Below, one piece after another: positions 4,700 through 60,822 of a DNA stretch of 64,000 nt (the stretch's first letter is position 1; every line of letters starts with the position of its first letter). The notes under the pieces were generated by a model, which was not told where the DNA came from, did no database searches, and saw only the letters and a program-made list of their open reading frames with translations. This stretch comes from Terripilifer ovatus (GTDB lineage: Bacteria; Pseudomonadota; Alphaproteobacteria; Rhizobiales; Beijerinckiaceae), in NCBI GenBank assembly GCA_029222685.1, contig JARHVB010000024.1, positions 1-64,000 of the forward strand, in the 5' to 3' direction. The position numbers and the translations under genes were made by a program.

Positions 4700-4724
4700 G
4701 ATCGTTCTCCTTGTCTGGAAATAA

Positions 4725-44553: not shown

Positions 44554-44565
44554 GGAGGGCTCATC

Positions 44566-45575: not shown

Positions 45576-45940
45576 CTTTGCCGGCTCGTGCCTTGAGAAG
45601 GCGAATCGTCAGACATCGAAAGTCTGGTCGAGCTGATCACCCTCTAATCGTAGTGGCGCTGCGCGCGAACTTGGACAATCCGCAAATCCGCAGGCTCTAC
45701 TTTTGGCTCGGACGGGCGTGGAAATGTAACGCTGAAAATAATAATAAGCAGGCGCAATCAGCGATTACTGCAAAAAAAGCTGCCCTGTTAGCTGTACCTC
45801 TCTCGATCAAAGCGTTTCTGGCAAACTCGCGCGATTCATGGGGTGTCTCTCGCACATCTTTGTAACCGGGCTTATTTCGAAAGGAACCCAAATAACACCG
45901 CAGCGTTGTCTATGCCGAATAACGCACATTGGGCGGGTAA
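45576..45940 (+). other. 365-bp intergenic stretch
   Basis: No gene or clear regulatory motif seen. It probably holds the promoter of the ferritin-like gene. Confidence 0.4.
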
Positions 45941-46399
45941 ATGGCAGACAACAGACCTTCGATTACACGCGAGAAGCTGGCGGCGCTGCTGAACGAAGAC
46001 TTGGCTCGCGAATACCAAGCGATCATCGCGTACGTTGTCTATTCGCAAGTGCTCAAGGGTGCTGAGTATATGAGCATTGCGGATCAGCTACAAAAGCACG
46101 CCGCGGAAGAGCTTAGACACGCGCTGACGATATCTCGGCAAATTGATTATCTCGGCGCTACACCAACGACGATTCCAAAACCCATCGAAGTATCCGATAG
46201 CGCGGAGAAGATATTGCGGGCAGATCTTCAGAACGAGATCGACACAATCAAGAACTATCGCGAGCGGATCCGTCAGTGTGAAACATTGGGCGAATTCGCT
46301 ATCGCCGAGCACATCCGCGAGATCTTGCTCGATGAGCAAGACCATTTGATTGATCTTGCCACCGCTCTGGGCGAAGACGCGCCAGATTTGACCAACTAG
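45941..46399 (+). CDS. Ferritin-like / bacterioferritin-type diiron protein, 152 aa
   Basis: A four-helix protein with the diiron ligands in order: Glu in LNEDLAREYQAIIAY (helix A), E-x-x-H in AAEELRHALTI (helix B), Glu in NEIDTIKNYRERI (helix C), and D-E-Q-D-H in LLDEQDHLIDLA (helix D). It may store or oxidise iron, or act as a Dps/bacterioferritin relative; no haem-ligand Met is obvious. The length is typical. It fits the metal and stress theme. The ATG is clear but the ribosome-binding site is weak (GGGCGGG). Confidence 0.85.
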   Translation: MADNRPSITREKLAALLNEDLAREYQAIIAYVVYSQVLKGAEYMSIADQLQKHAAEELRHALTISRQIDYLGATPTTIPKPIEVSDSAEKILRADLQNEIDTIKNYRERIRQCETLGEFAIAEHIREILLDEQDHLIDLATALGEDAPDLTN

Positions 46400-46516
46400 C
46401 ATCGCGTGCGAGGTGCACGCACGCCGAAGGATTTAAGTGCGAGGTCTGTCCGCCGCCCAATGTGTTGATTATTTTGTCGAAATGACGATTTCTGGCGTGG
46501 ACGCGCGCCTCAAATA

Positions 46517-46984
46517 TTAGCTTTTGCCATCGTTGGGTGTTGAGGGCTGGATCATGCTTTTCAGAGGGGCAAGAGAGCGGAGAGTTGCGAAGGTCACAAT
46601 GCTGAGGATCAGGGCAATATCATAGAGACCGTAGCCAACAGCTCCCCCGAGCGCCCCTGTTGCCCACAAGCTGGCCGCTGTGGCTGTGCCGGACGTATGG
46701 TCTCCGCGCTTCAGGATGGCACCTCCGCCAATGAATCCTATTCCCGTAATCAGACCTTCGAGAATCCGAGCTTGACCCATCGAGGTCTCGCCCAAGACGC
46801 GGATCGCGACGAGCACAAAACCGCATGCGGCAATCGCGACGAGCGGAAAGGTTCGTAGACCAGCGCTGCGCTCCTGACTTTCGCGCTCCCATCCAATCGG
46901 CAATGCCAAAATGTAGGCGATAGCCAAATCGACCAAGTGGGAGCCCATTTCCACCCAATTCAAGGCTGCAAATCTCATCGTCAT
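46517..46984 (-). CDS. MgtC/SapB-family membrane protein, 155 aa
   Basis: MgtC proteins aid survival at low magnesium and under stress; the homologous fold has four to five membrane helices. Conserved motifs are present: LPIGWERESQERSAGLRTFPLVAIAAC (first cytoplasmic loop), then GLITGIGFIGGGAILKRGDHTSGTATAASLWATGALGGAVGYGLY. The ACT-like C-terminal domain of the longer MgtC forms is missing, which is common in SapB-type proteins. ATG at 46984 follows GTGGGAG; two earlier starts in frame (47005, 47014) are possible. Confidence 0.88.
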   Translation of the reverse strand: MTMRFAALNWVEMGSHLVDLAIAYILALPIGWERESQERSAGLRTFPLVAIAACGFVLVAIRVLGETSMGQARILEGLITGIGFIGGGAILKRGDHTSGTATAASLWATGALGGAVGYGLYDIALILSIVTFATLRSLAPLKSMIQPSTPNDGKS

Positions 46985-47312
46985 CTCCCACTCGCCAACG
47001 GACATCCAGAACAATAGTGCTCGTGCAGGGGTTCCTGTTACTCTGTTACACGACGAAGAGATTTTCCGTGCCCAGCCTCTTCCGCCCCAGTCGATGATTG
47101 GCTACCGCTCGGCCAGAAAGTCTCCATTCGTTCAGAGCGAGCGGAATGTTACAAAATTAATGCGAGATTCTAGCTAAAAAATCCCGGGGTTTGCAATTGA
47201 CTTTCAATTGCGGAGCCCGAACACATGGCGGCGGGACCGGTTCTCGGCGGTTGTCAAGATTGGACAGGCGCCTTATTTCATGTTGGCAGACTTTTACTCG
47301 TAGGAGGTTGCT

Positions 47313-47675
47313 GTGGGTTCGCATTTTCTCGACCGTCTGTTTGGCCGGAGGTATGGCGGCGGCCATGGAGGCGGTCATCATGGAGGCGGCCACGGAGACC
47401 GGTACGGCCGAGGGCCCGATCGTGGTGCGCCTTGGGGCAATCAGCAGAATCCGGACTGGGATCAATCGCCGCCGCCCGCGCAACAGCGGGTGCTTGTGTG
47501 TCCCAGCTGTCGCTCTGACAACGCGCCGGACAGCCGTTTTTGCGCCAATTGTGGCCAGCGCTTCGGATCGTCCGAGGCGGCGTGTTCGAAGTGCAATGCG
47601 TCAATTCCAGCCAACTCTAAATTTTGCCGCTCTTGCGGTACGGCGGTGGCCGGAGCAAATCCTGAGGGAAAGTGA
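47313..47675 (+). CDS. Double zinc-ribbon protein with His/Gly-rich head, 120 aa
   Basis: Residues 14-30 are rich in Gly and His (YGGGHGGGHHGGGHGDRYG). Residues 60-112 hold two zinc ribbons, CPSCRSDNAPDSRFCANC and CSKCNASIPANSKFCRSC. The GTG start at 47313 has TAGGAGG. There is no signal peptide or membrane segment. The head could bind divalent metal and the ribbons zinc. No specific partner is evident and the role is unknown. Confidence 0.75.
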   Translation: MGSHFLDRLFGRRYGGGHGGGHHGGGHGDRYGRGPDRGAPWGNQQNPDWDQSPPPAQQRVLVCPSCRSDNAPDSRFCANCGQRFGSSEAACSKCNASIPANSKFCRSCGTAVAGANPEGK

Positions 47676-47878
47676 ATCCTGTCTTCGCGCCGACGTCCGA
47701 TCGGTGAACATGTTAGGCTGACGGCTTCGTGCGTTCTCAGGAGAGCGGCGTTATGCCCCGGTTGGGATGAGAGTGATCGTAGAAAAGAATCTGCATCCGT
47801 GCCCGAGGCTGTACAAGCAAGAGCTGATGCTTGAGGCGCGCCGTCCCAACGACTGAATGCTAGGCGCAAGAGGGTTAT

Positions 47879-48796
47879 ATGGCCGCAGGGGTTTCAGCGA
47901 GCGACCCAGTATCTACCGCGACAGCAGCGGGGCGTCATAAGCGCAGGCTGTACATTGCGCTGACCCTCACCACCACTTTTATGGTTGTCGAGGTCATTGG
48001 CGGCTTGTGGACCGGCAGCCTCGCTCTCCTCGCTGACGCAGCCCACATGCTCACGGATGCTGGCGGCCTGGCATTGGCTTTGATCGCGATCCGGTTCGCC
48101 GAACGGCCGCGGACACCACAGAATACCTTTGGATATGTCCGCATGGAGGTGTTATCGGCGCTCACCAACGCCGTGGTTCTCCTCCTTCTGACTGTATATA
48201 TCCTCTACGAGGCCTATCAGCGATTTCTCAGTCCGCCGGAGATCATCGGCGGTCCGATGCTGGTTGTCGCGGTCGCCGGTCTTATCGTCAACCTGATCAG
48301 CATGAAAATGCTCTCCGCCGGCTCGGCGGAGAGCCTCAACGTCAAAGGCGCCTACTTCGAGGTGCTGGCGGACATGCTCGGTTCGCTCGGCGTCATTGTG
48401 GCTGCAATCGTGGTGGTTCTGACCGGCTGGCAACTAGTCGATCCGATCATCGGCGCCGGCATCGGGCTGTTCATTGTCCCGCGCACGTGGATCCTGCTCA
48501 AGCAAGCGATCCATATTCTCATGGAGGGCACGCCGCCGGAAATCGACATAGCCTTGCTTGAAAGGAGGCTTCTCGAGATTCCGGGCGTCCTTGCCGTTCG
48601 TGATCTCCATGTCTGGACCATCACGTCCGGCGCCGATGCGATGAGCGGCCACCTTGTCGTGACTGATACCGCCTCAGCGCGGACGATACTGGCCGCAGCC
48701 CAGAAGGCGCTGAAGACTGGCTTTGGCCTGACACATGTGACGATCCAGATCGAGGACGAAGCGCTTCAGGGAGCCGAAGCGAAGCAGCCGTTTTGA
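47879..48796 (+). CDS. czcD: Cation diffusion facilitator (CzcD/ZitB-like), 305 aa
   Basis: A proton-coupled exporter of zinc, cobalt or cadmium. Six membrane helices lie in residues 20-215. The metal site is visible as the H-x3-D pair in LLADAAHMLTDAG (helix II) and the corresponding residues in VLADMLGSLGVIVAA (helix V, with Asp in place of His in the usual HVxxD: here VLADMLGS). The C-terminal cytoplasmic domain (PEIDIALLERRLLEIPGVLAVRDLHVWTITSG) is complete. With CzcCBA and the P-type ATPase this is the third metal exporter in the window. GGCGCAAGAGGG precedes the ATG. Confidence 0.92.
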   Translation: MAAGVSASDPVSTATAAGRHKRRLYIALTLTTTFMVVEVIGGLWTGSLALLADAAHMLTDAGGLALALIAIRFAERPRTPQNTFGYVRMEVLSALTNAVVLLLLTVYILYEAYQRFLSPPEIIGGPMLVVAVAGLIVNLISMKMLSAGSAESLNVKGAYFEVLADMLGSLGVIVAAIVVVLTGWQLVDPIIGAGIGLFIVPRTWILLKQAIHILMEGTPPEIDIALLERRLLEIPGVLAVRDLHVWTITSGADAMSGHLVVTDTASARTILAAAQKALKTGFGLTHVTIQIEDEALQGAEAKQPF

Positions 48797-48836
48797 TTCG
48801 TCGAGAAGTTTGCCGCAGTGAACGAGTGAGGACGAC

Positions 48837-49286
48837 GTGGGCAACGACCATTGGAATGAGCGTGTTTTCCGAAAGGGTCCTGGGTCAAATCGATACCCGG
48901 CGCCCAGGTCCGGTTACTCGAATGATACTCCGCCGCGAGCGCCGATCTCGTGGGCTGTCGTCATCTTCGGCCTCCTTGCATGGACGGTCGTTGTCTATGT
49001 TGGATATGTCGCACTCGATATCATCCTGTCGTGGCTTGCGACCAGCGGCAGCGCCGTGTTGCAAGCGGGCAAGGACGCCGGAAGTGCGATAGGCGTCGGC
49101 AAAGAGGTCGGCGTCGCGATCGACAGCCTGAAATCCAGCGGTCTGGTCGAGCAAGCCGTCGCTTTGCTCAGGATCATCCTGAAACCGGCGGCCGTGGTGA
49201 TTTGGTTGCTGGGAGCGCTGTTGATCGTCCTCTTGCCAAGGATGCTTGGGCGTCTGGCTGGAGCATTCGGCAGACGCCGACATTAA
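48837..49286 (+). CDS. Small membrane protein, 149 aa
   Basis: Not recognised. The first 35 residues are polar and probably cytoplasmic. Two hydrophobic segments follow (about residues 38-68, ISWAVVIFGLLAWTVVVYVGYVAL..., and 113-135, LKPAAVVIWLLGALLIVLL), ending in a basic tail. Between them lies a Gly/Ala/Lys amphipathic helix. GTG at 48837 has GAGGACG. It lies 40 bases after the CDF gene and may be co-transcribed with it. Confidence 0.65.
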   Translation: MGNDHWNERVFRKGPGSNRYPAPRSGYSNDTPPRAPISWAVVIFGLLAWTVVVYVGYVALDIILSWLATSGSAVLQAGKDAGSAIGVGKEVGVAIDSLKSSGLVEQAVALLRIILKPAAVVIWLLGALLIVLLPRMLGRLAGAFGRRRH

Positions 49287-49433
49287 GTATTATCGCTCTG
49301 GCCGCGCTCTGGATGATCCCGGTCAAATCTTGAACCATTGTCTTGTGGTAATTCCCCTGTCGGAAATGAGCGACCGGCGGCATCATTGGGGTAGCCATCA
49401 CCCAGTTTCGGCAAATTCTAGAGTCGAGGAAGG

Positions 49434-50465
49434 ATGACAGAAAAACAAGACAATCCGGGATCTGCTCCTCGACTGATCCTTTCCCTGCCGGGCAACGAAG
49501 CCTTTGGGCAGCATCTGGCAGCAGCCGGGCATTGGGAGCTCGGCCCCATAGAAACCCGGCAATTTCCGGATGGCGAGTCCTACGTCCGTATCCTGTCTGA
49601 CGTTTCAGGTCAGGCGGTCGATCTGGTCTGCACCCTCGCAAGGCCCGATGATGGCTTCTTGCGCCTTATCTTCGCGGCAGATGCCGCGCGGGCGCTTGGC
49701 GCGCGAGAGGTCACTCTGATCGCGCCTTATCTCGCGTATATGCGGCAGGACCGCCGTTTTCAGTCGGGTGAGGCGGTGACGTCGAAGAGCTTCGCGCGGC
49801 TCGTCTCGTCGAGCTTCGACCGGCTGGTCACCGTCGATCCGCATCTGCACCGATATTCGACTCTTTCGGCGCTCTACACGATCCCGACGGATACGATGCA
49901 TGCGGCGCCACTTCTGGCGGATTGGATTGCCGCGGAAGTCAACAATCCTCTTCTCGTCGGTCCCGACGAAGAGAGCGGGCAATGGGTATCGGCTATCGCC
50001 GCACGCATTGGCGCCCCACACGCGGTGCTGCGCAAGATCCGGCATGGCGATCGCAATGTCGACGTCGAATTGCCCGATCTGTCCAGATGGCGCGGCCGGC
50101 AGCCGGTGCTGGTCGACGACATCGCCTCGTCCGGCCGCACGCTGATCGAAGCCGCTCGCAAACTTCCGCTTCAAGGCTTTGCGCGACCCGTGGTGGTCGT
50201 TGTGCATGGCATTTTTGCCGAAGATTCTTTCCAGCGCCTTGCGCCGCTTTGCAGCCGGATCGTTTCGACAGATTCTGTTCCTCATGAGAGCAATGCCATC
50301 GGCCTTGCGCCGCTGGTTGCGAACGCGCTCGGATCGAGCGCTCCATCGTCGGCAGACCTCGTCCGGCACCGGCGTCCGCCCGAGCCTCTGGATGAGGTGG
50401 AGCGGGCCGGTCTCGATTCCTTTCCCGCGAGCGACCCGCCATCCTGGACAAGCGGGGCGCGGTGA
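49434..50465 (+). CDS. Ribose-phosphate pyrophosphokinase-like protein, 343 aa
   Basis: PRPP synthetases make PRPP from ribose 5-phosphate and ATP. The catalytic flexible loop (YMRQDRRFQSGEAVTSKSFARL, about residues 105-125), the VDPHLH metal/ATP segment, and the PRPP-binding loop VLVDDIASSGRTL (about 222-234) are all present. The C-terminal 35 residues are extra: after an Arg/Pro linker they end DEVERAGLDSFPASDPPSW, a motif also met in small stand-alone proteins. It heads a four-gene operon with phosphoketolase, nuclease and AMP-phosphorylase-like genes, so its job may be special to that pathway. Confidence 0.88.
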   Translation: MTEKQDNPGSAPRLILSLPGNEAFGQHLAAAGHWELGPIETRQFPDGESYVRILSDVSGQAVDLVCTLARPDDGFLRLIFAADAARALGAREVTLIAPYLAYMRQDRRFQSGEAVTSKSFARLVSSSFDRLVTVDPHLHRYSTLSALYTIPTDTMHAAPLLADWIAAEVNNPLLVGPDEESGQWVSAIAARIGAPHAVLRKIRHGDRNVDVELPDLSRWRGRQPVLVDDIASSGRTLIEAARKLPLQGFARPVVVVVHGIFAEDSFQRLAPLCSRIVSTDSVPHESNAIGLAPLVANALGSSAPSSADLVRHRRPPEPLDEVERAGLDSFPASDPPSWTSGAR

Positions 50466-50510
50466 AAGTGCCGCCTCCCGAAACCAGATCCAAAAAGGCG
50501 GTGAAGTAGC

Positions 50511-52880
50511 ATGAGCGGCACAGATTCCGAGATGTTCAATATTTGGCGCAAGGGGCATGGACCGATTGTCCATCGCGAAGAGACGGTCGAGCGCGTACGG
50601 GCGCTGGCTGCGTCAGGCCGCATCGACCCGCAAATGCTCTATCGGCTGCTGGCGGCCGCCGACCGCCTTGCCTCCGCCGCCATGTGGACCGTGGTCCACA
50701 TGACCTACGCCAAGCGCGTCGATCTCTCGGGCGCGCCTCTGCCGGCGGACGCGTTCAAGGCCACGCCGGAAGGACATACGGGCGGCTCCCTCAACATGGT
50801 TCCGGCTTTTGTCGGCTATCTGACGGCCAACGCGATTTCAGCGACGACGCGTTCCTGGCTGATGGGCCAAGGCCATTGTGTTGCCGCGATCGAGGCCGTC
50901 AACGCCCTTACCGGCGATGTCTCGCCAGCGCAGGCGGGTCGCTATGATCGTAGCGAGAAGGGATTGTCGCAGCTCGCCGTTGACTTCTACTCATACAAGA
51001 TCGGCCCCGACGGCGCTCCTGCTGTGCCGCTGGGCAGCCACGCCGGACCGAATACCGCCGGCGCGATCTCAGAGGGCGGTTATCTCGGCTTCGCCGAAGT
51101 ACAGTACGTGCACATGCCGCTCCCCGGCGAAAGCCTCGTGGCGTTCCTGAGCGACGGCGCCTTCGAGGAACAGCGCGGTTCGGACTGGACGCCTCGCTGG
51201 TGGCGCGCGGAAGATTCGGGCCATGTTATCCCGGTCATGGTTCTCAACGGGCGGCGTATCGAAGAGCGTGTCCAGATCGTGCAGCAGGGCGGCGCCACAT
51301 GGCTCGCCGATCATCTCAAGCTCAACGGCTTTGATCCCTTCATCGTCGACGGCCGCGATCCAGCCGCCTTCGCATGGGCCATCCTGGAAGCCGAGCGCCG
51401 ACTCCAGAGTTTCGCCGCGGATGCGGCGCATTCCTATCCGGCGCCTGTTCCTTATGTGATCGCCGAAACCGTCAAAGGGTTCGGCTTTCCAGGCGCGGGC
51501 ACGAATGCCGCGCACAATCTGCCGCTTGGCGGCAATCCCGCACAGGACAAAGCAGCAAGGACTGCCTTCAACGATGCGGCCCGCGCGCTGTTCGTGCCGC
51601 CGGACGAGATTGAGCAAGCCGCCGCAGCGATCGCCGTCCATGGCAAGCAGGGCCGCGCGCCCGAAAGCCGGCACCCCCTCGCGCTGCGGCGACCTGCGGC
51701 CCCAGTGCTCCCCGAACCTGATTGGACCGCGGCCGGCAGTCCGCCCGACTGCGCGATGCACGCTATCGACCGCTGGTTCGTCCGCCTCATCGATGCGAAC
51801 CCCGGCCTACGGCCCCGTGTCGGCAACCCCGACGAGCTGCGCTCAAACCATATGGGTGCAACCCTCGACAGGCTGCGCCACCGGGTGAACGTTTCAGAGC
51901 CCAACGTCGCCGATGCCGTGGATGGGGCGGTCATCACCGCGCTCAACGAGGAAGCGGTTGCAGGCGCAGCGCTTGCCAACAAAGGAGGCGTCAACCTGAT
52001 CGTCAGCTATGAGGCTTTCGCCATGAAGATGCTGGGCGGGCTGCGTCAGGAGATCGTCTTCGCTCGTCGCCAGCGTGAGGTCGGCCAGGAGCCGGGCTGG
52101 ATATCCGTCCCGCTCGTCGTCACGTCCCACACCTGGGAGAATTCCAAGAACGAGCAGTCGCATCAGGATCCGACCATTGGCGAGGCGCTGCTCGGTGAGA
52201 TGTCCGACACGGCGCGCGTGCTGTTTCCCGTAGACACCAATAGCGCTATGGCCGCCCTGCGAGCCGTCTATCAAGGCCGCGGACAGGTGGCTTGCCTTAT
52301 CGTGTCGAAGCGCGACATGCCGCATCGCCTCGGTGGCGAGGCTGCGCTCAAGTTCATTGCCGACGGAGCCGCTCACATCGAAGGCAAGCGCGACGGCGCC
52401 GAGTTGCAACTCGTCGCCATCGGCGCCTACCAGCTCGAGGAGGTGCTCAAGGCAGCACATCGCCTCAAGGCGCGCGGCCGCCGCGTTCTCGTAACCGCTC
52501 TCTCGGAGCCAGGCCGATTCCGAATCCCCCGCGATTCCATCGAAGCCGCCTTCACAGCCAGCGAGGAGGATATTGCAGCGCTGTTCCCGGCCGGGCTGCT
52601 GCGAGTCATCGCGTCTCACACGAGACCGGAACCAATGCTCGGCCTGTTGCGGCGGATCGACTCCGGCCCCCAAAGGACTGTCGCGCGCGGCTATATCAGC
52701 CGGGGTGGTACGTTGGACGTTGCCAGCATGCTGTTCGCCAACCGCTGCAGCTGGGCGCATCTGGTGGACGCTGCGGGCACTCTCGGCGGCTGGAAGCGTG
52801 ACGAGATTCTCTCCTCGACCGAGCAAGGCGCGCTCGACGGACGCGGCGATCCGGCGGATTTGGCCGCCTTCACATTCTGA
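50511..52880 (+). CDS. Phosphoketolase-like thiamine-diphosphate enzyme, 789 aa
   Basis: Phosphoketolases cleave xylulose 5-phosphate or fructose 6-phosphate with phosphate to acetyl phosphate. The N-terminal ThDP half has KATPEGHTGGSLNMVPAFVGYL and GQGHCVAAIEA, with GSHAGPNTAGAISEGGYLG and LSDGAFEEQRGSDWTPRWW as the ThDP/metal segment. The Pyr half has EPNVADAVDGAVI with the catalytic Glu, and the late TSHTWENSKNEQSHQDP is very typical of phosphoketolases. Length (789) fits. The N-terminal phosphate-site motifs are diverged from characterised Xfp proteins, so another ketose substrate is possible. AckA at 33799 could use the product. Confidence 0.85.
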   Translation: MSGTDSEMFNIWRKGHGPIVHREETVERVRALAASGRIDPQMLYRLLAAADRLASAAMWTVVHMTYAKRVDLSGAPLPADAFKATPEGHTGGSLNMVPAFVGYLTANAISATTRSWLMGQGHCVAAIEAVNALTGDVSPAQAGRYDRSEKGLSQLAVDFYSYKIGPDGAPAVPLGSHAGPNTAGAISEGGYLGFAEVQYVHMPLPGESLVAFLSDGAFEEQRGSDWTPRWWRAEDSGHVIPVMVLNGRRIEERVQIVQQGGATWLADHLKLNGFDPFIVDGRDPAAFAWAILEAERRLQSFAADAAHSYPAPVPYVIAETVKGFGFPGAGTNAAHNLPLGGNPAQDKAARTAFNDAARALFVPPDEIEQAAAAIAVHGKQGRAPESRHPLALRRPAAPVLPEPDWTAAGSPPDCAMHAIDRWFVRLIDANPGLRPRVGNPDELRSNHMGATLDRLRHRVNVSEPNVADAVDGAVITALNEEAVAGAALANKGGVNLIVSYEAFAMKMLGGLRQEIVFARRQREVGQEPGWISVPLVVTSHTWENSKNEQSHQDPTIGEALLGEMSDTARVLFPVDTNSAMAALRAVYQGRGQVACLIVSKRDMPHRLGGEAALKFIADGAAHIEGKRDGAELQLVAIGAYQLEEVLKAAHRLKARGRRVLVTALSEPGRFRIPRDSIEAAFTASEEDIAALFPAGLLRVIASHTRPEPMLGLLRRIDSGPQRTVARGYISRGGTLDVASMLFANRCSWAHLVDAAGTLGGWKRDEILSSTEQGALDGRGDPADLAAFTF

Positions 52881-52889
52881 AAGTTCGCA

Positions 52890-54248
52890 ATGTTGACTCT
52901 GACCTCTCTCGGCGGCGCCGGCACTGTCACCGGCTCCAAACATCTCCTCACCAACGGCGGCAAGCGCATCTTGATTGATTGCGGTCTATTTCAAGGCCTC
53001 AAGAACCTTCGCGAGCTGAACTGGGAACCGTTGCCGGTCGCGCCGTCGAGCATCGATGCCGTCGTCTTGACCCATGCTCATCTCGATCACTCGGGCGACT
53101 TACCCAAGCTCGTGCGTGACGGCTTTCGTGGCCGCATCTACGCGACCGCGGCGACACGCGATGTCGCAGAGCTCATCCTCAAGGACAGCGGCTACCTCAA
53201 CGAGAAGGACGCTGAGTACGCCAATCGGAAAGGGTTCTCCAAACACAAGCCGGCGCTGCCGCTGTACGGCGCGCGTGATGCCGAACGCGCCATGGAATTC
53301 TTTTCGCTTGTTCCTTTCAACACGGTCACGACGCTCCCAGGTGGTGCGACCGTGAGGTTTCGCTACGCCGGCCACATCCTCGGAGCCGCCAGCGCCGAGA
53401 TCGAATGGGGCGGCCGCCGCATTGCTTTTTCAGGGGACCTCGGTCGCTACGGCGATCCAATCTTTCCAGACCCAGCCGCTATCGCCGAAGCAGATTACGT
53501 CGTCGTTGAATCGACCTACGGAAATCGTACCCACGATGTGACGGATCCCACCGAAGCGCTTGGCAATGTCATCGAGCGCACCATCAAGCGCGGTGGCACA
53601 GTGGTCATCCCGGCCTTCGCGGTCGGACGGGCACAGTCGCTACTCTATCATCTGTGGCGCCTGCAAACCGCCGGCCGCCTTCCGAGCGTCCCGATCTATC
53701 TGGACAGCCCGATGGCGATCGAAGCGACTGGCCTGCTCCACGCCCACCACGACGATCACCAACTGTCTTCGAGTGAATGCGACGCGATCTGCCGCATCGC
53801 CACCTACACGCGCGATGTGGAAAGCTCCAAGGCGATTTCGACCAGCCCCTGGCCCAAGGTGGTGGTATCGGCGAGCGGGATGGCGACGGGAGGTCGCGTC
53901 CTCCATCATCTCAAAGCCTTCGCGACCGATCCCAAGCACACGATCCTGTTCTCGGGGTTCCAGGCTGCTGGAACGCGAGGACGGGCTATGCTTCAGGGCG
54001 CGCGCGACATCAGGATCCATGGCCAATGGATCCCGGTTCGGGCGGAAGTCGATGACCTGTCGATGCTGTCGGCACATGCCGATGCCGACGAGCTGATGCG
54101 CTGGCTCTCCGGCTTCCGCCGCGCTCCGTCTCGCGTCTTCATCGTCCATGGCGAGGCCGACGCCGCCGAAGCGCTGCGGGTGCGGATTGATCGCGAACTT
54201 GGGTGGGATGCCGCTGTGCCACGTCAGAACCAGATCTTCGATCTATGA
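52890..54248 (+). CDS. Metallo-beta-lactamase/beta-CASP nuclease (RNA-processing type), 452 aa
   Basis: The MBL zinc motif HAHLDHSGD is at about residues 62-70, with later metal ligands in GHILGAASAEIEW and FSGDLGRYGDPI. The beta-CASP insert (residues about 200-390) shows the typical GRAQSLLYHLWRLQ helix. The C-terminal RMMBL region has VDDLSMLSAHADADELMRWL and VFIVHGE with the conserved His. Such proteins act as RNA endo- or exonucleases (YsxF/CPSF-73-like). Its place between phosphoketolase and AMP phosphorylase suggests RNA turnover feeding nucleotide salvage, which is inference. Overlaps the next gene by ATGA. Confidence 0.9.
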   Translation: MLTLTSLGGAGTVTGSKHLLTNGGKRILIDCGLFQGLKNLRELNWEPLPVAPSSIDAVVLTHAHLDHSGDLPKLVRDGFRGRIYATAATRDVAELILKDSGYLNEKDAEYANRKGFSKHKPALPLYGARDAERAMEFFSLVPFNTVTTLPGGATVRFRYAGHILGAASAEIEWGGRRIAFSGDLGRYGDPIFPDPAAIAEADYVVVESTYGNRTHDVTDPTEALGNVIERTIKRGGTVVIPAFAVGRAQSLLYHLWRLQTAGRLPSVPIYLDSPMAIEATGLLHAHHDDHQLSSSECDAICRIATYTRDVESSKAISTSPWPKVVVSASGMATGGRVLHHLKAFATDPKHTILFSGFQAAGTRGRAMLQGARDIRIHGQWIPVRAEVDDLSMLSAHADADELMRWLSGFRRAPSRVFIVHGEADAAEALRVRIDRELGWDAAVPRQNQIFDL

Positions 54249-55774
54249 CGACGACAGATAGCACTGCTCGTGCCGATCAACCAAGGCACCGTGTACGCCG
54301 CCTCCGGCTGCATAGCCAGCACCAGGCGATCGTAGTCATGCGTGCCGACTGTCACGTCTGCCGGGCCGAGGGATTTGCTTCGCGCTCTCAGGTTCTCGTG
54401 GCCAATGGCAGGCGCCAGGTCCAGGCGACTCTTTTTCAGATCGAAGGCGAATCTATGTTGGCTCTCGATGAGATCGGGCTGTCGGAAACTGCCTGGGACC
54501 TTCTTGGCGTCGCGGAAGGCGACGAGGTCAGGGTCTCCCATCCACCCGCAATGGATTCGCTCGCTGATGTGCGGCGGCGTATCTATGGCAATCGTCTGGA
54601 TACGACCGCCTTCTCGGAGATCGTGAGGGATGTTGTCGCCGGCCGCTACACCGACGTGCACCTCGCCGCCTTCCTGACCGCGAGCGCCGCGCTGCCGCTG
54701 GACGAAGAGGAAACGGTTAGTCTGACGAGGGCAATGGTGAATGTCGGCGACCGCCTGCGCTGGGATGCCGCGATCGTGGTCGATAAACACTGCATCGGCG
54801 GGCTTCCCGGCAACCGCACCACGCCGATTGTCGTGGCGATCGTGGCCGCGAACGGCCTAGTCATGCCCAAGACCTCCTCGCGCGCGATCACCTCGCCGGC
54901 CGGTACGGCCGATATGATGGAAACCTTGGCGCCTGTCGATCTCGACATCGCGACTCTCCGGCGCGTGGTGGAGGCGGAAGGGGGCTGCATTGCCTGGGGC
55001 GGTGCGGTCCACCTCAGCCCGGCCGACGATATCTTCGTGCGGGTGGAGCGCGAACTGGATATCGATACTGAAGGTCAGTTGATTGCGTCCGTCCTCTCGA
55101 AGAAGATCGCTGCAGGCTCGACACACGTGGTCATCGATATCCCGGTCGGCGCAACCGCGAAGGTGCGCGGTAAAGACGTCGCTGACCGCCTTGCCGAGCG
55201 CATGACCGCAGTGGCTGCGCGCTTTAACCTTGCCGCCAGATGCCTTCAAACCGATGGCTCGCAGCCCGTCGGCCGTGGCATCGGTCCGGCGCTCGAAGCC
55301 TTCGATGTGCTCTCCGTTTTGCATAACAAATCCGACGCGCCCGATGACCTGCGCCAGCGGGCTGTCACGCTGGCGGGCGCGGCGCTGGAAATTGGCGGCA
55401 AGGCCAGCCAGGGAAGCGGCGCAGCGCTGGCGCTCTCGACGCTTGCCGGCGGCGCAGCGTGGAAGAAGTTCGAAGCCATCTGTGAGGCGCAGGGCGGACT
55501 GCGCACTCCGCCGCAGGCGCGCCACGTCTATCCATTGGTTGCGCCGCGCGCAGGCCGAATCGTTCATATCGACAATCGCAAACTAGCGCGGCTTGCCAAG
55601 CTCGCTGGCGCGCCCGGCGCCAAGGCTGCCGGCGTCTTCATGGAGGTGCGGCTTGGCGACGACGTCGACCGCGGACAGCCGCTCTTTCATGTCCACGCCG
55701 AGACACCCGGCGAGCTCGCCTACGCGCTCGACTATGCGGCACGTGCTGGCGATATTATGATAGTCGGGTCTTAA
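54245..55774 (+). CDS. AMP phosphorylase / thymidine phosphorylase family enzyme, 509 aa
   Basis: Residues 95-509 carry the nucleoside phosphorylase fold. The key block VVDKHCIGGLPGNRTTPIVVAIVAANGL and SRAITSPAGTADMMETLAPV matches the archaeal AMP-phosphorylase subgroup and not E. coli DeoA (which has STGG and RGLGHTGGTLDKLE). The 85-residue N-terminal extension and length near 505 are also those of AMP phosphorylase. It would turn AMP or other NMPs and phosphate into base and ribose 1,5-bisphosphate. No ribose-1,5-bisphosphate isomerase or RuBisCO is seen here; the PRPP-synthetase homologue upstream may be relevant. Last gene of the 49.4-55.8 kb operon. Confidence 0.88.
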   Translation: MTTTDSTARADQPRHRVRRLRLHSQHQAIVVMRADCHVCRAEGFASRSQVLVANGRRQVQATLFQIEGESMLALDEIGLSETAWDLLGVAEGDEVRVSHPPAMDSLADVRRRIYGNRLDTTAFSEIVRDVVAGRYTDVHLAAFLTASAALPLDEEETVSLTRAMVNVGDRLRWDAAIVVDKHCIGGLPGNRTTPIVVAIVAANGLVMPKTSSRAITSPAGTADMMETLAPVDLDIATLRRVVEAEGGCIAWGGAVHLSPADDIFVRVERELDIDTEGQLIASVLSKKIAAGSTHVVIDIPVGATAKVRGKDVADRLAERMTAVAARFNLAARCLQTDGSQPVGRGIGPALEAFDVLSVLHNKSDAPDDLRQRAVTLAGAALEIGGKASQGSGAALALSTLAGGAAWKKFEAICEAQGGLRTPPQARHVYPLVAPRAGRIVHIDNRKLARLAKLAGAPGAKAAGVFMEVRLGDDVDRGQPLFHVHAETPGELAYALDYAARAGDIMIVGS

Positions 55775-55887
55775 AGGCTCCCTGCTGGCGGTTGAGTCGG
55801 ATCGTCTGGGCTTACCTGGGACCGCGCTCAAAGCAATAACTCCGTTTCCAATTTACAGGATATTTTGCAGCATACACAGGGTTTTAC

Positions 55888-56135
55888 GATGTGGAGGCCT
55901 GCCAACTTTTCATGTGGGGCCAAGCGACATTGCCAAAGGATTTCGACACTGCGATATGGCCTACTCACCGTCTGCTCGCTGCTCCTGGATCGCTCAACGC
56001 CACGGCCGAGGCGCACCGCGACCACCTTGCGAAATAGTCGACACCCTCCGCCATCGAAAGGTCAGTTGGGCAAAGATCACAGATAAGCTTGACGTGTTGC
56101 GTCAGACTGCAAGGGAACGGTTCGGCGGATCTTAG
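55888..56135 (+). pseudogene. Relic of a ClpX-type zinc-finger protein gene
   Basis: The reading DVEACQLFMWGQATLPKDFDTAIWPTHRLLAAPGSLNATAEAHRDHLAK follows the gene at 44566 residue for residue. A one-base deletion after AHRDHLAK shifts the frame, and the next frame continues VDTLRHRKVSWAKITDKLDVLRQTARERFGGS to a TAG. The zinc-finger part is missing at the 5' side. The relic shows the full-length ending that the intact copy has lost. Confidence 0.85.
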
Positions 56136-57049
56136 TTGCGCCGGAGCCGGCTTATCTTCGTTGTCTAACAGCGCTGGAATGGCAGGGCTCGACGGGCCAT
56201 CTGGTGCGCTGCCGCTCACCCTCGCCCTGCCGACTTGTCCTTGCTTGTCGAAGATCATACAGAACATGATCGAACTTGTTTGCTAAGCTCTTCCCCATCA
56301 AGCCTACCGCGTGCTCGCCACACATTTGCTAGCCATGCCTGATGAGGTAGGCGACGACGCAGCCATCGTCTTCAGCATGAGACAATGGTGCCAAACCCGT
56401 TCTGCTCCGATGGCTTGAAGATTCTCTACGTGATGATGTCGTCGATGGCCGCCCACCGAAGGTGGTCAAGTTGGGCACCGTCCGTCATTGGCGATTCGCT
56501 CTTGTCCGTCATTCGCAACTTTGTACGGCGGCAATCCCGAACCCGTCTCGTCACCGGGCGGGAATCTAGTCTAGGCTGGCGAATAGCCCAGCTGCTATAC
56601 AGGGGCATCGTAAGACATCGAGCCCGTGAGACGCCGGATTAATTCCTCGATCAACGCTACCTTGGCCGCTTCGCCTGGGCATCAGTGCGTCATGGTGGCA
56701 TCACCGCAGCCCTGCGGGATGAAGTCGAAGCGCGCCACCGTCACGACGGTGACTGGCGACTACCCGGGCAGTGCGCATCATCCATCGCCATACGAGCGAG
56801 ACCCCTCCGTGAAGCTCTACCAATCTCTTTGGTAAGCGCGAGACAAGTTTGAGGACAACTTGGTGTGGTAAATTCGTTGGATTATGTTCGAAACATTCTG
56901 CTGCGAGGACTATTAACTGGCGACAGAGATTACGTTACACGGGTCGGTCCCAAAACGCGGTGTGCATGAAATTTCCGGCGGGCGCCCTTGAGGCCAAGCT
57001 TATCGCGGTGACGCAGGTCAAGTCGTGAACCCATAACGGATAGGTGGCA
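56136..57049. other. 914-bp gene-free stretch
   Basis: No open frame has both a ribosome-binding site and recognisable protein. Composition and lack of long frames suggest decayed DNA after the zinc-finger relic, plus the promoter of the gene at 57050. I see no repeats or RNA genes here. Confidence 0.4.
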
Positions 57050-57916
57050 ATGACTATCAGTGTCCAGACCTTTTACGATCAGCGCAGTGGCACCGCAACG
57101 CATGTTGTCACATGCGCTGCGTCCGGTTCTTGTGTTGTCATCGATCCAGTGTTCGATCTAGATCCAAAGTCGGGACGTACCAGCCGCGCTCCCGTTGACC
57201 GTATCGTGGATTTCATAAGGGCCGAGAAGTTGTCACTGGAATGGCTTCTGGAGACCCATGTTCATCACGATCACATCTCCGGCGCCCTGGCCTTGCGTGA
57301 AACGCTCGGCGGCCGACTGGCAATCGGCAAGCGCGTTGTGGAGGTCGCCGAAGTTATTCGCCAAGTCTATGCCCTGCCGCAAACGCATGCACGTCCGTTC
57401 GACCGTCTGTTGGATGAAGGCGACAGCCTGGGGTTTGGCGAAGAGACGATCGAGGTTTGGGCGACGCCGGGGCACACGATCGACCATTTGAGCTATCGCA
57501 TCGCCGACACGATTTTTCTGGGCGACACGCTCTTCATGCCCGATAGCGGAACGGCGCGCTGCGACTTCCATCGCGGCGACGCCCGCATGCTCCATTCTTC
57601 GATCCGTCGTATCCTCGATCAGCCCGAAGAGACACGCTTGTTCGTTTGCCATGATTACGGCGCGGAGGGCAGCCGCCCGCCCGCCTGGGCAACCACAGTG
57701 GGCGCGCAGCGGGCCGAAAATATTCATGTCGGCAAGGGGCGGACCGAAGCGGAGTTCATCGCTCTGCGGCAGGAGCGCGATGCCGGGCTCGAAATGCCAG
57801 CGCTCCTGCTCGCATCCTTGCCGCTCAACATCGCGGCTGGGCGCTTCCCGGAGCCCGCAAGTAACGGGCGGGTCATTCTGCCGATGCCGCTTGATGTTCC
57901 GGTCAGTGCTCTCTAG
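57050..57916 (+). CDS. Persulfide-dioxygenase-like MBL-fold protein (ETHE1/Blh type), 288 aa
   Basis: ETHE1-type enzymes oxidise glutathione persulfide to sulfite. The metal motif [10 protein letters not shown] (about residues 68-77) and the later [11 protein letters not shown] (His), [18 protein letters not shown] (bridging Asp and family-typical GTARCDF) and [10 protein letters not shown] (His) give a full iron site in the persulfide dioxygenase pattern. The length of 288 fits the Blh subgroup found with sulfide-linked genes. The ATG at 57050 is preferred over GTG at 57044. The next gene, 52 bases on, is a flavin disulfide reductase-like protein. Confidence 0.85.
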
Positions 57917-57968
57917 CCGCCACCGCCCGAGCGTGGCTTCCACCGCCCCAAATACACGGGACACCGTG

Positions 57969-58904
57969 ATGGATGAAATCCTGTCAACTGGCCGTCCGCT
58001 CGATTGCCTCGTTGTTGGAGGGGGCCCTGCGGGCCTGACTGCTGCGATCTATCTGGCGCGGTACCGGCGACGCGTCACCGTAGTGGACGACGGCGACAGC
58101 CGCGCACTCTGGATACCCCGTTCACACAACCATGCCGGCTTTCCCGACGGAATTAGCGGCAAGGAGCTGTTGAGTCGTATGCGCGCTCAGGCGGAGCTCT
58201 ACGGTGCCGGATTGCTGCGGGGCCGTATCGAGACGATCGAGGAGCGGGACGGCAGCTTTCTGGCGTGTGGTAACAACATCGCGCTCGAAGCGCGAACCAT
58301 TCTTTTGGCAACCGGCACCAACAACCGGCGCCCGGACCTCGATCCCGCTATGCATCGGTCTGCGCTGGAGCGCGGTCTGCTGCGCTATTGTCCGGTCTGC
58401 GACGGCTTCGAGGCCGGGGACAAGGCTATCGGTGTTATCGGCGCCGATGCGAGGGGCGTCGCTGAAGCCTTGTTCCTGCGAACATATTCCGAAGACATTA
58501 CCATACTCTCGGCGGGTGCAGTCGATATCAGCTCCGACGACCGCGCCCTTCTCGAACGCCACGGTATCCGCGTGGAAGAACGACCGCCCTTGCGCCTCGA
58601 TTGCACCGGTAGTCGCGCGATAGTTCACTTTCGCGACGGCTCGCAGCTCAGCTTCGACACCATCTATCCGGCGCTTGGTTCCGAAGCGAACGACCATCTT
58701 GCCCAGGCGCTCTGTCTCGACATGGCGGATGGGTGCTGTATCGCGGTCGATCAAAAGCAACGCACTAGCCGAGGCGGCATCTACGCCGCAGGCGACATCG
58801 TCTTCGCGCTCGATCAGATCAGCGTCGCGATGGGCCACGCGGCAATCGCCGCCACGACGCTGCACAACGATCTGCGCAATCTAGACGGCTTAACGCGCCA
58901 GTAG
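57969..58904 (+). CDS. Thioredoxin-reductase-like FAD/NAD(P) oxidoreductase, 311 aa
   Basis: An N-terminal FAD motif [18 protein letters not shown] (about residues 15-32), then the redox pair Cys141-x-x-Cys144 in [11 protein letters not shown] (as CATC in TrxB), an NAD(P) motif [16 protein letters not shown], and the C-terminal [24 protein letters not shown], which binds FAD. The size matches low-molecular-weight TrxR. It could reduce a thioredoxin or act with the persulfide dioxygenase. No thioredoxin gene lies nearby. The ribosome-binding site is weak (CACGGGAC). Confidence 0.9.
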
Positions 58905-59541
58905 TAAATCGGGCTGTGAAGTCGAGAATGGCAGCAGAGACAAAACCTTCGAAGCGCTTGAGCTGCCTGTCCAGAGCCGCAGTGCATCGCACCTCATCTC
59001 TTTGTCGTATTCAATCTGGACTGATGGCGGTTCTCGTGCGTTTCATGACGGAAGTGAAACAGCCGCGCTGTGTGGGTCTTCCATCAGCGCAAAGCAGGGC
59101 ATTGGGACTGTGCCGATACGGAGGACATTAACTCGCTGGCAAAGTCAGTTGTAAATGTGTCGGACCGCGCGACGGTGCAGGCAGTTTGGCCAGGCTTGCG
59201 CTGTTGTGTGGGCAATGGATGAGGTGATATTGTGCACCGGTGATGGTCACATTCTCCCGTCACCGGGGGTGGGCGATCAAAGGAGTGATACAGCGTGAAA
59301 TGGCGGTTCACGAGCGTGCTGTGCAAAGGCAACGCCCGATCGCCCTTAAAAAGGTAGCGTTCCTTGATACCGAGGCCGAAGATGAGCGCAACATCAGAGA
59401 ATTGCCCAGCGGGGCTCTGATCGCATCTTCCCAGCAGGTCGACTGCGACCATGGGGTGCCAGCATGTCCTTAACGTGAGCATTTGGCGCCTAAGTGTGCT
59501 AATATTTGGACATCTCGCTATATTTAGGGGCAGTCGCTTTT
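58905..59541. other. 637-bp gene-free stretch
   Basis: Short frames in both directions without ribosome-binding sites or known motifs. It includes the promoter region of the TPR gene. Nothing else recognised. Confidence 0.4.
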
Positions 59542-60822
59542 ATGCTCAGGGCGCTTTCCAAACAATCGGCCCCACCGTTGGTGTTCGGACTTTTCGTGAC
59601 GCTCATTACTTTGTCTGTAATACCTTTGGCGAAGGCAGACGCACTCGATTTGGCACAGGCTGGTTTTGCGGCGAAGCAGCGTCGCGATTGCGTGCAAGCC
59701 ATTCAGCTTTTTAGCGAGGCAATTCGTCAGGGTAATTTCGATAGTGAGCGCCGCGGCTTCCTCGTCTACAGCCGAGGTGTATGTTACGAGGGCATGGGAA
59801 TTCGCGACAAAGCGTTATCCGATTTCGACACTGCAATAGCGCTTTTGCCGAACTTTCCCAATTCCTACATCTACCGGGGCCTGATTTGGACATTCGAGCG
59901 CGAATACGATCGCGCCATCGACGACTTTCTTAGCGCGCGCCGACTAAGTCCCAGGGATCCGATGATTTTCAACAACCTTGCGGGCGCTTACGAAAGAAAA
60001 GGCGATCTGGATCGAGCGATCGAAAACTATGATGAGGCTGTTCGCCTTCAGCCGAGTTATGCAGAAGCTTATTACAACCGCGCTGCCGCCTTTCTGACGA
60101 AAGGCGATCTACAAAGAGCACTTTCCGATTACGACCAGGCAATCTCACTGCAGCCGACGTTTGCGGATGCAATCGGCAACAGAGGCGCGGTGCATCTGAT
60201 GCTGGGAAACTTTGAGAAGGCGATCGCAGATTTCGGCGCGGCGATCCGCCTGAGGCCGGGGGACGCGAGCTTTTGGGCAAATCGGGCCAATGCAAATTTG
60301 ACAGTAAGAAATCTTACTGCGGCGCTCGCCGATTTCGATCAGGCGCTCCAACTTGCTCCCGGAGACCCAGCCTATTATCTCGGTCGAGGACGCGCCCGAT
60401 TGTTTGCCGGGGATAATACGGCGAGTGTCGAGGATTTCAAAACCGCGGTGCGTCTGCGGCCGTCCAATCCATATGCGATGATCTGGCTCCACATCGCTCG
60501 CGTGCACGGTGGAGAAAATGACCGCGCCGAGCTGACCGAGAACGCTGCAAAAGTCAGGCGAGACATGTGGCCGGCGCCGATGCTCGAGTATTATCTGGAT
60601 GCGGTCGATTCGGGGCAAGTTCAGGCGGCATCCCGTATCGGGTCTGGCCAGGATCAAGCCAAGCGCGCGTGCGAAGCTGAGTTCTTCTTGAGCGAGTCCA
60701 TTGTTCATGCCGGACAAGTCGATCAAGCGCGCGAACGTCTCAAAAGCGTAGTGGCAGGGTGCAAACTGTATGACGTCGTTTACAGCGCAGCATTGGCCGA
60801 GCTTAATTTACTTTCTAAATGA
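59542..60822 (+). CDS. Secreted or periplasmic TPR-repeat protein, 426 aa
   Basis: A signal peptide (about residues 1-33, ending LAKA) precedes at least seven tetratricopeptide repeats, clearly seen as NNLAGAYERKGDLDRAIENYDEAVRLQPSYAEAYYNRAAAFLTKGDLQRALSDYDQAISLQP and similar 34-residue units from about 50 to 330. The C-terminal 90 residues are a different helical region. TPR proteins act as scaffolds; the partner is unknown. The ATG at 59542 is preferred to a TTG at 59506 because it starts directly at the signal peptide. Transcription is probably monocistronic. Confidence 0.85.
   Translation: MLRALSKQSAPPLVFGLFVTLITLSVIPLAKADALDLAQAGFAAKQRRDCVQAIQLFSEAIRQGNFDSERRGFLVYSRGVCYEGMGIRDKALSDFDTAIALLPNFPNSYIYRGLIWTFEREYDRAIDDFLSARRLSPRDPMIFNNLAGAYERKGDLDRAIENYDEAVRLQPSYAEAYYNRAAAFLTKGDLQRALSDYDQAISLQPTFADAIGNRGAVHLMLGNFEKAIADFGAAIRLRPGDASFWANRANANLTVRNLTAALADFDQALQLAPGDPAYYLGRGRARLFAGDNTASVEDFKTAVRLRPSNPYAMIWLHIARVHGGENDRAELTENAAKVRRDMWPAPMLEYYLDAVDSGQVQAASRIGSGQDQAKRACEAEFFLSESIVHAGQVDQARERLKSVVAGCKLYDVVYSAALAELNLLSK

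Follow-up and report, generated by a model that had tools for sequence, protein, structure and literature searches.

What becomes of ribose 1,5-bisphosphate (R15P) in bacteria that lack both R15P isomerase and RuBisCO is the question raised by four genes in the window, the 64-kb stretch of DNA analysed here. The initial annotation had described a module of PRPP-synthetase-like, phosphoketolase-like, beta-CASP nuclease and AMP-phosphorylase-like genes spaced by 45, 9 and −4 bases, and the ORF coordinates bear this out: all four lie on the + strand, at 49434–50465, 50511–52880, 52890–54248 and 54245–55774 (genes 1 to 4; 343, 789, 452 and 509 aa). The start of gene 4 is taken as the ATG at 54245, in a 4-base overlap with gene 3; the mechanical ORF list begins instead at GTG 54203. 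A second copy of the whole module, with 79–81% protein identity, lies on contig C77 of the same assembly, which also encodes a canonical phosphoketolase (XFP; contig C67) and a canonical PRPP synthetase (PRS; contig C56). The absence of R15P isomerase and RuBisCO, previously noted for the window, holds for the whole assembly, where the best TIGR00511 score is 149 bits (cut-off 314) and PF00016 has no match at E ≤ 1e-10. The nearly inseparable gene pair described below supplies a candidate enzyme for the fate of R15P in such bacteria.

The four genes are not a chance cluster. The families of the gene 4 and gene 1 products, PRK04350 and PRK07199, share their genomes and their position. Among 199 Pseudomonadota genomes, with presence defined as passing the family cut-off, both occur in the same 26 genomes, from 18 genera, and in each of the 28 copies the two genes adjoin on one strand. 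Conserved synteny outside the window, on which the initial annotation had made its reading depend, is clearly present. Between lineages the gene order is reshuffled and the linkage kept: prs, casp and phos occur in four relative orders, with more when the XFP-like gene is counted, and the phos-prs distance correlation is 0.949 over 87 loci. The linkage reaches Alpha-, Beta- and Gammaproteobacteria, one Acidobacteriota (Pyrinomonadaceae) and one Dependentiae MAG, a Chlamydiota plasmid and a plasmid labelled Bacteroidota. PRK07199 is absent from four phosphorylase loci with enough flank (L052, L070, L083 and Azospirillum L150). A beta-CASP gene (E ≤ 1e-70) lies within 1 kb of 14 of the 28 pair copies, and of the 11 XFP-like copies in the survey just 5 adjoin the pair.

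On balance, we regard the locus as a conserved, laterally moving operon by which cells short of oxygen would split nucleotides with phosphate to recover ribose and energy. The best reading of the module is a route from nucleoside monophosphates (NMPs) through R15P to acetyl phosphate and ATP, favoured because of the linkage, the joining of XFP and acetate kinase (AckA) to it, and the FixK2 dependence of the Bradyrhizobium diazoefficiens homologues; for this route we infer each reaction, the use of RNA as source and the direction of flux. In the model, the beta-CASP RNase would help to free NMPs from RNA, and the PRK04350 phosphorylase would convert NMP and inorganic phosphate into free base and R15P. 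The PRK07199 enzyme would act next, most likely converting R15P into ribose 5-phosphate (R5P) and capturing the C1 phosphate on a nucleotide, either as R15P + ADP → R5P + ATP or as R15P + AMP → R5P + ADP. Housekeeping isomerase and epimerase would then give xylulose 5-phosphate, phosphoketolase or the XFP-like enzyme would use phosphate to form acetyl phosphate and glyceraldehyde 3-phosphate, and acetate kinase would yield ATP.

The computation itself shows that the genes exist, that their linkage is conserved, that they bear the family signatures and that they repeatedly co-occur with XFP and AckA. The AckA gene that the initial annotation had placed in the same window is indeed there (33799–34989, + strand), adjoining a MaoC-PTA fusion gene (phosphate acetyl/butyryl transferase; 32384–33802, +) in an island that also holds the PHB synthase gene phaC (30623–32380, +) and two universal stress protein genes (40602–41453, −; 26864–27676, +). 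In other lineages, canonical phosphoketolase and/or acetate kinase genes join the gene run independently. The L. fallonii plasmid has the order MBL-phos-prs-XFP and the Criblamydia plasmid (Chlamydiota) XFP-glgP-ATPcone-MBL-phos-prs-ackA, in both of which the XFP is canonical by identity; one genome (G076) has a canonical XFP downstream of the pair, and the Thiobacillus MAG locus L070 has the run phos-ackA-XFP. The proposed energy logic, pentose phosphates to acetyl phosphate to ATP, gains from these runs and from the FixK2 dependence of both the homologous operon and XFP-AckA in B. diazoefficiens.

Since nucleotide phosphorolysis is not strongly favourable, the biosynthetic direction is possible. 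PRK07199 would then make R15P from R5P, spending one phosphate and not pyrophosphate, and the phosphorylase would join R15P to free bases, a cheap salvage of NMPs that spares ATP under energy limitation. The same linkage and signatures fit this scheme, and so does the frequency of loci that hold the pair with neither RNase nor phosphoketolase: of the 98 loci typed, 16 have this arrangement, and only one other is commoner. Nevertheless, it leaves unexplained why RNase, phosphoketolase, glycogen phosphorylase and acetate kinase have joined the pair repeatedly, and we consider it unlikely.

The gene 4 product passes PRK04350 (673 bits, cut-off 434) and falls below the AMP-phosphorylase equivalog TIGR03327 (474 bits, cut-off 535), as do four other bacterial relatives (494–507 bits). 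Aligned to 4ga5, it carries AMP-phosphorylase-type motifs, including KTSSRAITS (54869–54895, + strand), which is common to archaeal AMP phosphorylase. Across the family, KTSSRAITS is found in 98 and GGxPGN[RK]T in 95 of 99 rows, and the PyNP motif in none; pyrimidine nucleoside phosphorylase has a GRGLGHTGGT-type sequence at the KTSSRAITS position. Phosphorolysis of NMPs to R15P is the predicted activity.

The gene 1 product passes both PRK07199 (429 bits, cut-off 322) and the PRPP synthetase model TIGR01251 (198 bits, cut-off 113), so that the earlier label, PRPP-synthetase-like, stands as to family but requires a correction at the active-site loop. The K-x-R flexible-loop pair, the metal-ligand His and the R5P-binding Asp-Asp and Thr are all present, and in the PRK07199 rows K201, R203, D228, D229 and T236 are retained in 90/90 and H137 in 89/90, with nucleotide, metal and R5P roles assigned from literature seen in part on the canonical enzymes. 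In the H-L-H-R segment (residues 137–140; 49842–49853, + strand) the metal-ligand His is followed by a family-specific His-Arg (H139 in 90/90, R140 in 89/90), where canonical PRS has G/E/D and Q (9/9). The loop D178-E-E-S-G-Q-W184 (49965–49985, +) has been rebuilt: the canonical D-x-G-G is absent from the gene 1 product and the PRK07199 columns, which have D-x-E-S (E180 in 89/90, S181 in 87/90, W184 in 89/90), whereas all nine canonical rows have D-x-G-G-x-x-R. Pyrophosphate binding is the role expected of this loop. Because the nucleotide, metal and ribose ligands are kept and the pyrophosphate loop is rebuilt, PRK07199 may process R15P. No R15P isomerase is over cut-off in any of the 26 pair genomes, 14 of which have RuBisCO; PhnN is over cut-off in five of them. 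In the window's own assembly, where PhnN is over cut-off, it is a possible R15P consumer.

The alternative that the two enzymes are ordinary ones, a pyrimidine nucleoside/nucleotide phosphorylase and a stress isoform of PRPP synthetase serving general nucleotide turnover, agrees with the product names of homologues in database records and with the retained K-x-R pair, metal-ligand His and R5P ligands. It is made improbable by the phosphorylase motif counts, by the family-wide change in the loop, by the strict pairing and by the canonical PRS found beside PRK07199 in 26/26 pair genomes, which makes PRK07199 a second PRPP-synthetase homologue. Very improbable is a pyrophosphate-driven variant, in which the phosphorylase-like enzyme would turn NMP into PRPP and PRK07199 would run as a PRPP synthetase in reverse (PRPP + AMP → R5P + ATP): the PRS ligands are retained and gene 4 has a relative in anthranilate phosphoribosyltransferase, an enzyme that acts on PRPP, but the loop changed in PRK07199 is the presumed pyrophosphate-binding one. 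Moreover, the characterised archaeal relative uses inorganic phosphate, according to the available part of PMC8376864.

The remaining partners were partly relabelled. Gene 3, with MBL, beta-CASP and RMMBL domains, RNase TTHA0252 as nearest solved relative and the catalytic motifs of that type of RNase, is the beta-CASP nuclease it had been called. Gene 2 is related to phosphoketolase, as proposed, exceeding the Pfam gathering scores of XFP (133.4 bits, cut-off 22) and XFP_N (48.8, cut-off 23.7), but is a divergent ThDP enzyme of an XFP-like subfamily: it is 22–26% identical to canonical XFP and falls below all six NCBIfam phosphoketolase cut-offs (PRK05261 set, 777–1518 bits), with a best score of 134 bits where that model's cut-off is 962. 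Active-site residues H89, H122, H177, N246, H335, S445, E480, N547 and K600 are kept in 46/46 XFP-like sequences, with a canonical His replaced by K546 (46/46) and a canonical Gln by N336 (45/46). Two plasmid records label gene 2 homologues 'xylulose 5-phosphate 3-epimerase'.

The locus is probably mobile: the phosphorylase occurs in 105 plasmid records, of which 46 are conjugative, genes for copper or heavy-metal efflux are its neighbours in many of 14 regions examined, and the window DNA is 95.3–96.8% identical to Camelimonas and Rhodopseudomonas over 11.6–19.8 kb. That the genes are together only through travel on stress/copper islands and plasmids is nonetheless hardly credible, since their adjacency survives reshuffled gene orders and several pair loci sit, as judged by eye, among apparent housekeeping genes.

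The low-oxygen part of the proposal draws on data of others for homologues, which show microoxic induction and FixK2 dependence. In the parts of PMC6515984 available, B. diazoefficiens bll3115, bll3116, bll3117 and the phosphoketolase gene bll2518 are up in microoxia as protein and transcript, in a relaxed list outside the top 66 proteins, and are marked as unchanged in soybean bacteroids and outside the earlier direct FixK2 regulon. In those of PMC9104804, deletion of fixK2 lowers bll3117, bll3115, bll2518 and the AckA gene bll2517 6.6- to 30.6-fold, with putative FixK2 boxes upstream of bll3117 and bll2518. The FixK/FNR-like box ATGATCCCGGTCAA of the window (49313–49326, + strand), 108 bases upstream of gene 1, is a weak candidate, having one mismatch where 14 such matches are expected by chance in the window; the nearest relatives carry the degenerate ATGATCCCAGTCAT in its place. 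A genome with the bll3117-bll3116-bll3115 order (G149, locus L098) has the 14-base box of that B. diazoefficiens operon at −74, and candidate FixK boxes with at least 7/8 matches occur in 28 of 91 upstream regions of loci versus 462 of 3391 control stretches.

A further-reaching version can be offered only tentatively: PRK07199 might have arisen from PRPP synthetase as a new enzyme class, that of a ribose-1,5-bisphosphate:ADP (or AMP) phosphotransferase coupled to a bacterial NMP phosphorylase so that the glycosyl-phosphate bond is kept as a nucleotide anhydride. RNA might then be a store of energy for anaerobic conditions, drawn on through phosphoketolase and acetate kinase, with the genes on a mobile low-oxygen island spread across several phyla. 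The gene pair predicts a PRPP-synthetase fold doing single-phosphoryl chemistry. If true, 'thymidine phosphorylase' and 'ribose-phosphate pyrophosphokinase' annotations would be corrected in many genomes and plasmids, and whether bacteria burn their own RNA to survive anoxia would become testable.

Among the closest known systems is the pentose bisphosphate pathway (NMP shunt) of Thermococcus kodakarensis, composed of NMP phosphorylase, R15P isomerase and RuBisCO; AMP phosphorylase with RuBisCO is noted in CPR bacteria (both from parts of PMC9700705, PMC8376864 and PMC7304191). The bacterial loci share with the archaeal pathway a homologous phosphorylase, its hallmark motifs and R15P as presumed intermediate, but they differ in having the PRS-like enzyme as the phosphorylase's constant neighbour and in showing no R15P isomerase over cut-off in the 26 pair genomes and, in the window's own genome, no RuBisCO. 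Compared with canonical PRPP synthetases (E. coli, human PRPS, archaeal class III), PRK07199 keeps the nucleotide, metal and R5P ligands and differs by its D-x-E-S-x-x-W loop, its HLHR segment and its presence in addition to the canonical gene. Adps of phage NARP1, as described in the portion of PMC12774641 available, serves just as a precedent for a PRPS-like enzyme with changed substrate; its partner is Namat and not a phosphorylase. The low-oxygen-activated (lxa) locus of Burkholderia cenocepacia is an island that likewise combines an MBL protein with universal stress proteins and with genes of PHB and PTA type; in this comparison by text, the available part of PMC6127331 does not mention pyrophosphokinase, thymidine phosphorylase, ribose or phosphoribosyl. 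The bll3117-bll3116-bll3115 operon of B. diazoefficiens, predicted to join phosphorylase, PRS-like and MBL genes behind a putative FixK2 box, differs by the lack of an XFP-like gene, with XFP-AckA forming a separate FixK2-dependent operon (PMC9104804, in part), and the proteins of such loci (L097–L099) are 37–44% identical to those of the window. These genes are tabulated, with no pathway proposed, in the parts of PMC9104804 and PMC6515984 available. The parts of the route proposed here are known; their combination is apparently new.

The module is best read as an RNA-to-energy pathway, a reading to which we assign a slightly better than even chance. RNA would be converted through NMP, ribose 1,5-bisphosphate (R15P), ribose 5-phosphate and xylulose 5-phosphate into acetyl phosphate, from which acetate kinase would yield ATP. 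The third step, in which a PRPP-synthetase homologue of subfamily PRK07199 would act on R15P via single-phosphoryl transfer, is the novel part of the reading and its least secure. Among the titles listed by searches of open-licence literature, no paper proposing such a bacterial pathway was found, and an earlier description may exist elsewhere.

The four open reading frames lie, as initially annotated, on the + strand with intergenic gaps of 45, 9 and −4 bases. Gene 1 (49434-50465) was placed in PRK07199 by family search and is referred to as PRS-like (prs). Gene 2 (50511-52880), described initially as phosphoketolase-like, passes the Pfam phosphoketolase thresholds but falls far below six NCBIfam phosphoketolase cut-offs, and is here termed XFP-like. 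The beta-CASP nuclease assignment was borne out for gene 3 (52890-54248), an MBL/beta-CASP/RMMBL gene whose product has intact beta-CASP motifs and is nearest to RNase TTHA0252. Gene 4 (54245-55774), taken for an AMP-phosphorylase-like gene, passes the PRK04350 cut-off but misses the AMP-phosphorylase equivalog (474 versus 535 bits). A second full copy of the module, with 79-81% protein identity, is present in the same genome (contig C77, locus L003, 11260-17556), and a canonical phosphoketolase (XFP) is encoded on a third contig of the assembly.

Conserved synteny elsewhere, the check proposed in the initial annotation, was analyzed with two curated models (PRK04350 and PRK07199) in 199 evenly drawn Pseudomonadota genomes of at least 90% completeness. 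Each model gave 28 copies over cut-off in 26 genomes, the identical 26 in both cases, and phosphorylase and PRS-like genes (the pair) adjoin on one strand in 28/28 copies. Between the two model matches lie 5-97 bases in 25 copies; in the other three, one from genome G145 and the two from the window's own genome, the XFP-like and beta-CASP genes intervene and the distance is 3.8-3.9 kb. At least 14 of the 28 copies have a beta-CASP homologue (E<=1e-70) no more than 1 kb from the pair, a minimum given this threshold. XFP-like genes (at least 52% identity) amount to 11 copies in 9 genomes; five accompany the pair, and four of the six located away from it are divergent beside a beta-CASP gene. The pair-bearing genomes span 18 genera, while neither model is over cut-off in nine further sampled genomes of the window's own family; hence its distribution is patchy, and lateral acquisition of the pair is probable.

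The stronger of the alternatives, that the pair runs in the biosynthetic direction, is in our view unlikely. As to outlets for R15P, R15P isomerase (TIGR00511) is over cut-off in none of the 26 pair-bearing genomes. Matches in 16 reach only 139-180 bits, with a cut-off of 314, and a hidden isomerase outlet was accordingly rejected; these matches probably represent other e2b2-family isomerases such as MtnA. PhnN was likewise discarded as a general outlet, being over cut-off in just five genomes, the window's included; weaker matches of 45-72 bits (cut-off 156) were disregarded. RuBisCO is present in 14, the window's genome not among them, so that the absence of R15P isomerase and RuBisCO noted initially holds for that genome. 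None of the three can be the common R15P outlet. The RNA-to-energy reading would assign this role to PRK07199, the candidate by context as the constant neighbour of the phosphorylase; its occurrence in 26/26 genomes follows from how these were chosen.

That the pair consists of ordinary enzymes is less likely again, and has to be set beside both the retained and the rebuilt parts of the PRS-like active site. Ninety rows (the window protein with its relatives, and a single outlying row, L109_407, at 27% identity) were aligned with nine canonical sequences, the ligand residues of E. coli and human PRPS being taken from PMC9232217 and PMC4363470. Ligands F44, D46, R104, H137, D178, K201, R203, D228, D229 and T236 are each kept in 88-90 of the 90 rows, and H139-R140 follow the metal-ligand His in 90/90 and 89/90. 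In the segment which we presume to be, in name and role, the pyrophosphate loop, the canonical G-G is replaced by E180 (89/90) and S181 (87/90), and the canonical R by W184 (89/90). PDxESxxW is found in 87/90 rows, and PDxESx[QP]W and HLHR both occur in 13/13 plasmid copies; aligned columns were used instead of a bare PDxES pattern count, which was discarded since an N-terminal FPDGES motif matches too. According to PMC4363470, mutation H130A makes human PRS1 yield ADP instead of AMP, which argues that the PRS scaffold is able to switch the transferred group. Moreover, one canonical PRS besides PRK07199 is encoded in 26/26 pair-bearing genomes, and PRK07199 should therefore be dispensable for PRPP supply. 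Chance clustering of the module genes is ruled out by the 28/28 adjacency and by reshuffled gene orders.

The contig scan with the phosphorylase gave 114 relatives, the best 80 loci of which were kept; together with further survey loci, 98 were typed for gene order. The prevailing orders were prs-xfp-casp-phos (36), phos-prs (16) and casp-phos-prs (14), followed by prs-casp-phos (7), phos-prs-casp (6), casp-prs-phos (3) and five more pair-containing arrangements with one locus each. The remaining 11 loci have no called prs: seven (L014, L020, L030, L051, L056, L060, L065) end at a contig edge near the module, L058 has a tblastn prs match with no long open frame, and in L052, L070 and L083 the flanks are present and prs is absent. 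PRK07199 is not over cut-off in the genomes behind L070 and L083. After removal of identical proteins, which reduced the 94 loci with both genes to 87, phosphorylase distances correlated with those of PRS-like (0.949; 87 loci), beta-CASP (0.945; 70 loci) and XFP-like proteins (0.971; 40 loci). Two MAGs likewise have the pair, one from Dependentiae (L072) and one from Pyrinomonadaceae (L077), the latter with a nearby ORF (4050-4925) that by eye resembles an ATP-cone protein. A type II (archaeal-type) GAPDH lies in the Pseudorhizobium island (L142, 19633-20673), and a similar GAPDH-type protein, assigned by eye, in 12 loci. Extra F1F0 ATPase genes adjoin or neighbour the pair in Legionella anisa (L141, 2548-6032) and in G076 (L090, 1397-2866).

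Among 72,556 plasmid records, 105 carry phosphorylase relatives (E<=1e-80), 46 of them typed conjugative, and 97 carry PRS-like relatives (E<=1e-40). In 14 plasmid regions picked for spread, whose gene tables are incomplete, the PRS-like gene shares the phosphorylase gene run in 13, the exception being Azospirillum (tblastn-checked); the MBL gene does so in 11, the upstream side in L. anisa lying past the record start, and a phosphoketolase or XFP-like gene is present in four. On the Criblamydia sequanensis plasmid (Chlamydiota), a single strand bears the genes for phosphoketolase, glycogen phosphorylase, the ATP-cone protein at L140 3771-4613, MBL, phosphorylase, PRS-like and acetate kinase. 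The Legionella fallonii plasmid encodes MBL, phosphorylase, PRS-like and phosphoketolase. Plasmid copies often lie beside copper/heavy-metal P-type ATPases, RND efflux and DUF2933 genes (L145, L146, L147, L148, L152 and others). The island carrying the module appears mobile: window positions 44248-64000 share 96.7-96.8% DNA identity over 19.8 kb with Rhodopseudomonas loci L005 and L007, and Camelimonas L006 has 95.3% identity to the window over 11.6 kb. A TraG/VirD4-type conjugative coupling protein gene (9044-10972) may belong to an integrative element that carries the island. Among phage records, 283 match the PRS-like protein (E<=1e-10), 282 of them below 60% identity; the other, in MT836048.1 (680-1528; 75% identical), comes from an unannotated record labelled phage that may be a mislabelled bacterial contig.

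The island also encodes universal stress proteins, PHB synthase, PTA, metal efflux and acetate kinase, in agreement with the AckA annotated initially. In Bradyrhizobium diazoefficiens under microoxia, PMC6515984 gives protein (log2)/transcript changes of 2.9/15.4 for bll3115 (MBL), 4.4/7.7 for bll3116 (PRS-like), 2.1/5.1 for bll3117 (phosphorylase) and 4.3/8.2 for bll2518 (phosphoketolase), all four being unchanged in soybean bacteroids and outside the earlier-defined direct FixK2 regulon. According to PMC9104804, bll3117, bll3115, bll2518 and bll2517 (acetate kinase) are lowered in two fixK2 mutants, putative FixK2 boxes precede bll3117 and bll2518, and bll3116 appears solely as a predicted operon member. 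Locus L098 (genome G149) has the same gene order and box, at −74, as the bll3117 operon. The box upstream of the window copy is too weak for firm proof. Over the loci, 28/91 upstream regions had at least 7 of 8 box matches versus 462/3391 control stretches (Fisher p 2.6e-5), which is indicative only; the loci are related to each other and the control stretches include coding DNA. No Rfam element reached gathering score in 44000-60000, and sigma-70-type promoters and terminators in 48700-57100 showed no excess over shuffles. Identity of the island with the lxa locus was not established in the portions of the lxa literature searched. A further MBL-fold gene (57044-57916), with a FixK-like site just upstream (57008-57021), probably has a separate function.

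XFP-like proteins keep the cofactor and most active-site positions, one canonical His being changed to Lys in 46/46 rows and one Gln to Asn in 45/46, relative to 12 canonical rows in which one gene is counted twice (L085, L124); the catalytic roles of these positions are assumed after Bifidobacterium structures. The best argument for gene 2, predicted to carry out a phosphoketolase-type reaction, is that true XFP replaces the XFP-like slot in other lineages. Phosphorylase, acetate kinase and canonical XFP stand in a row in a Thiobacillus MAG, a canonical XFP follows the pair in G076 at a distance of some 730 bases, and the phosphoketolases of the Criblamydia and L. fallonii plasmids both class with canonical XFP, sharing 47-72% identity with two canonical references and about 24% with the window protein. 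In plasmid records L139 (8989-11376) and L142 (10250-12637), the XFP-like protein is annotated as 'xylulose 5-phosphate 3-epimerase'. In the phosphorylase family, the pyrimidine-nucleoside-phosphorylase motif occurs in 0/99 rows, whereas KTSSRAITS is found in 98/99 and GGxPGN[RK]T in 95/99, the same two motifs as in archaeal AMP phosphorylase.
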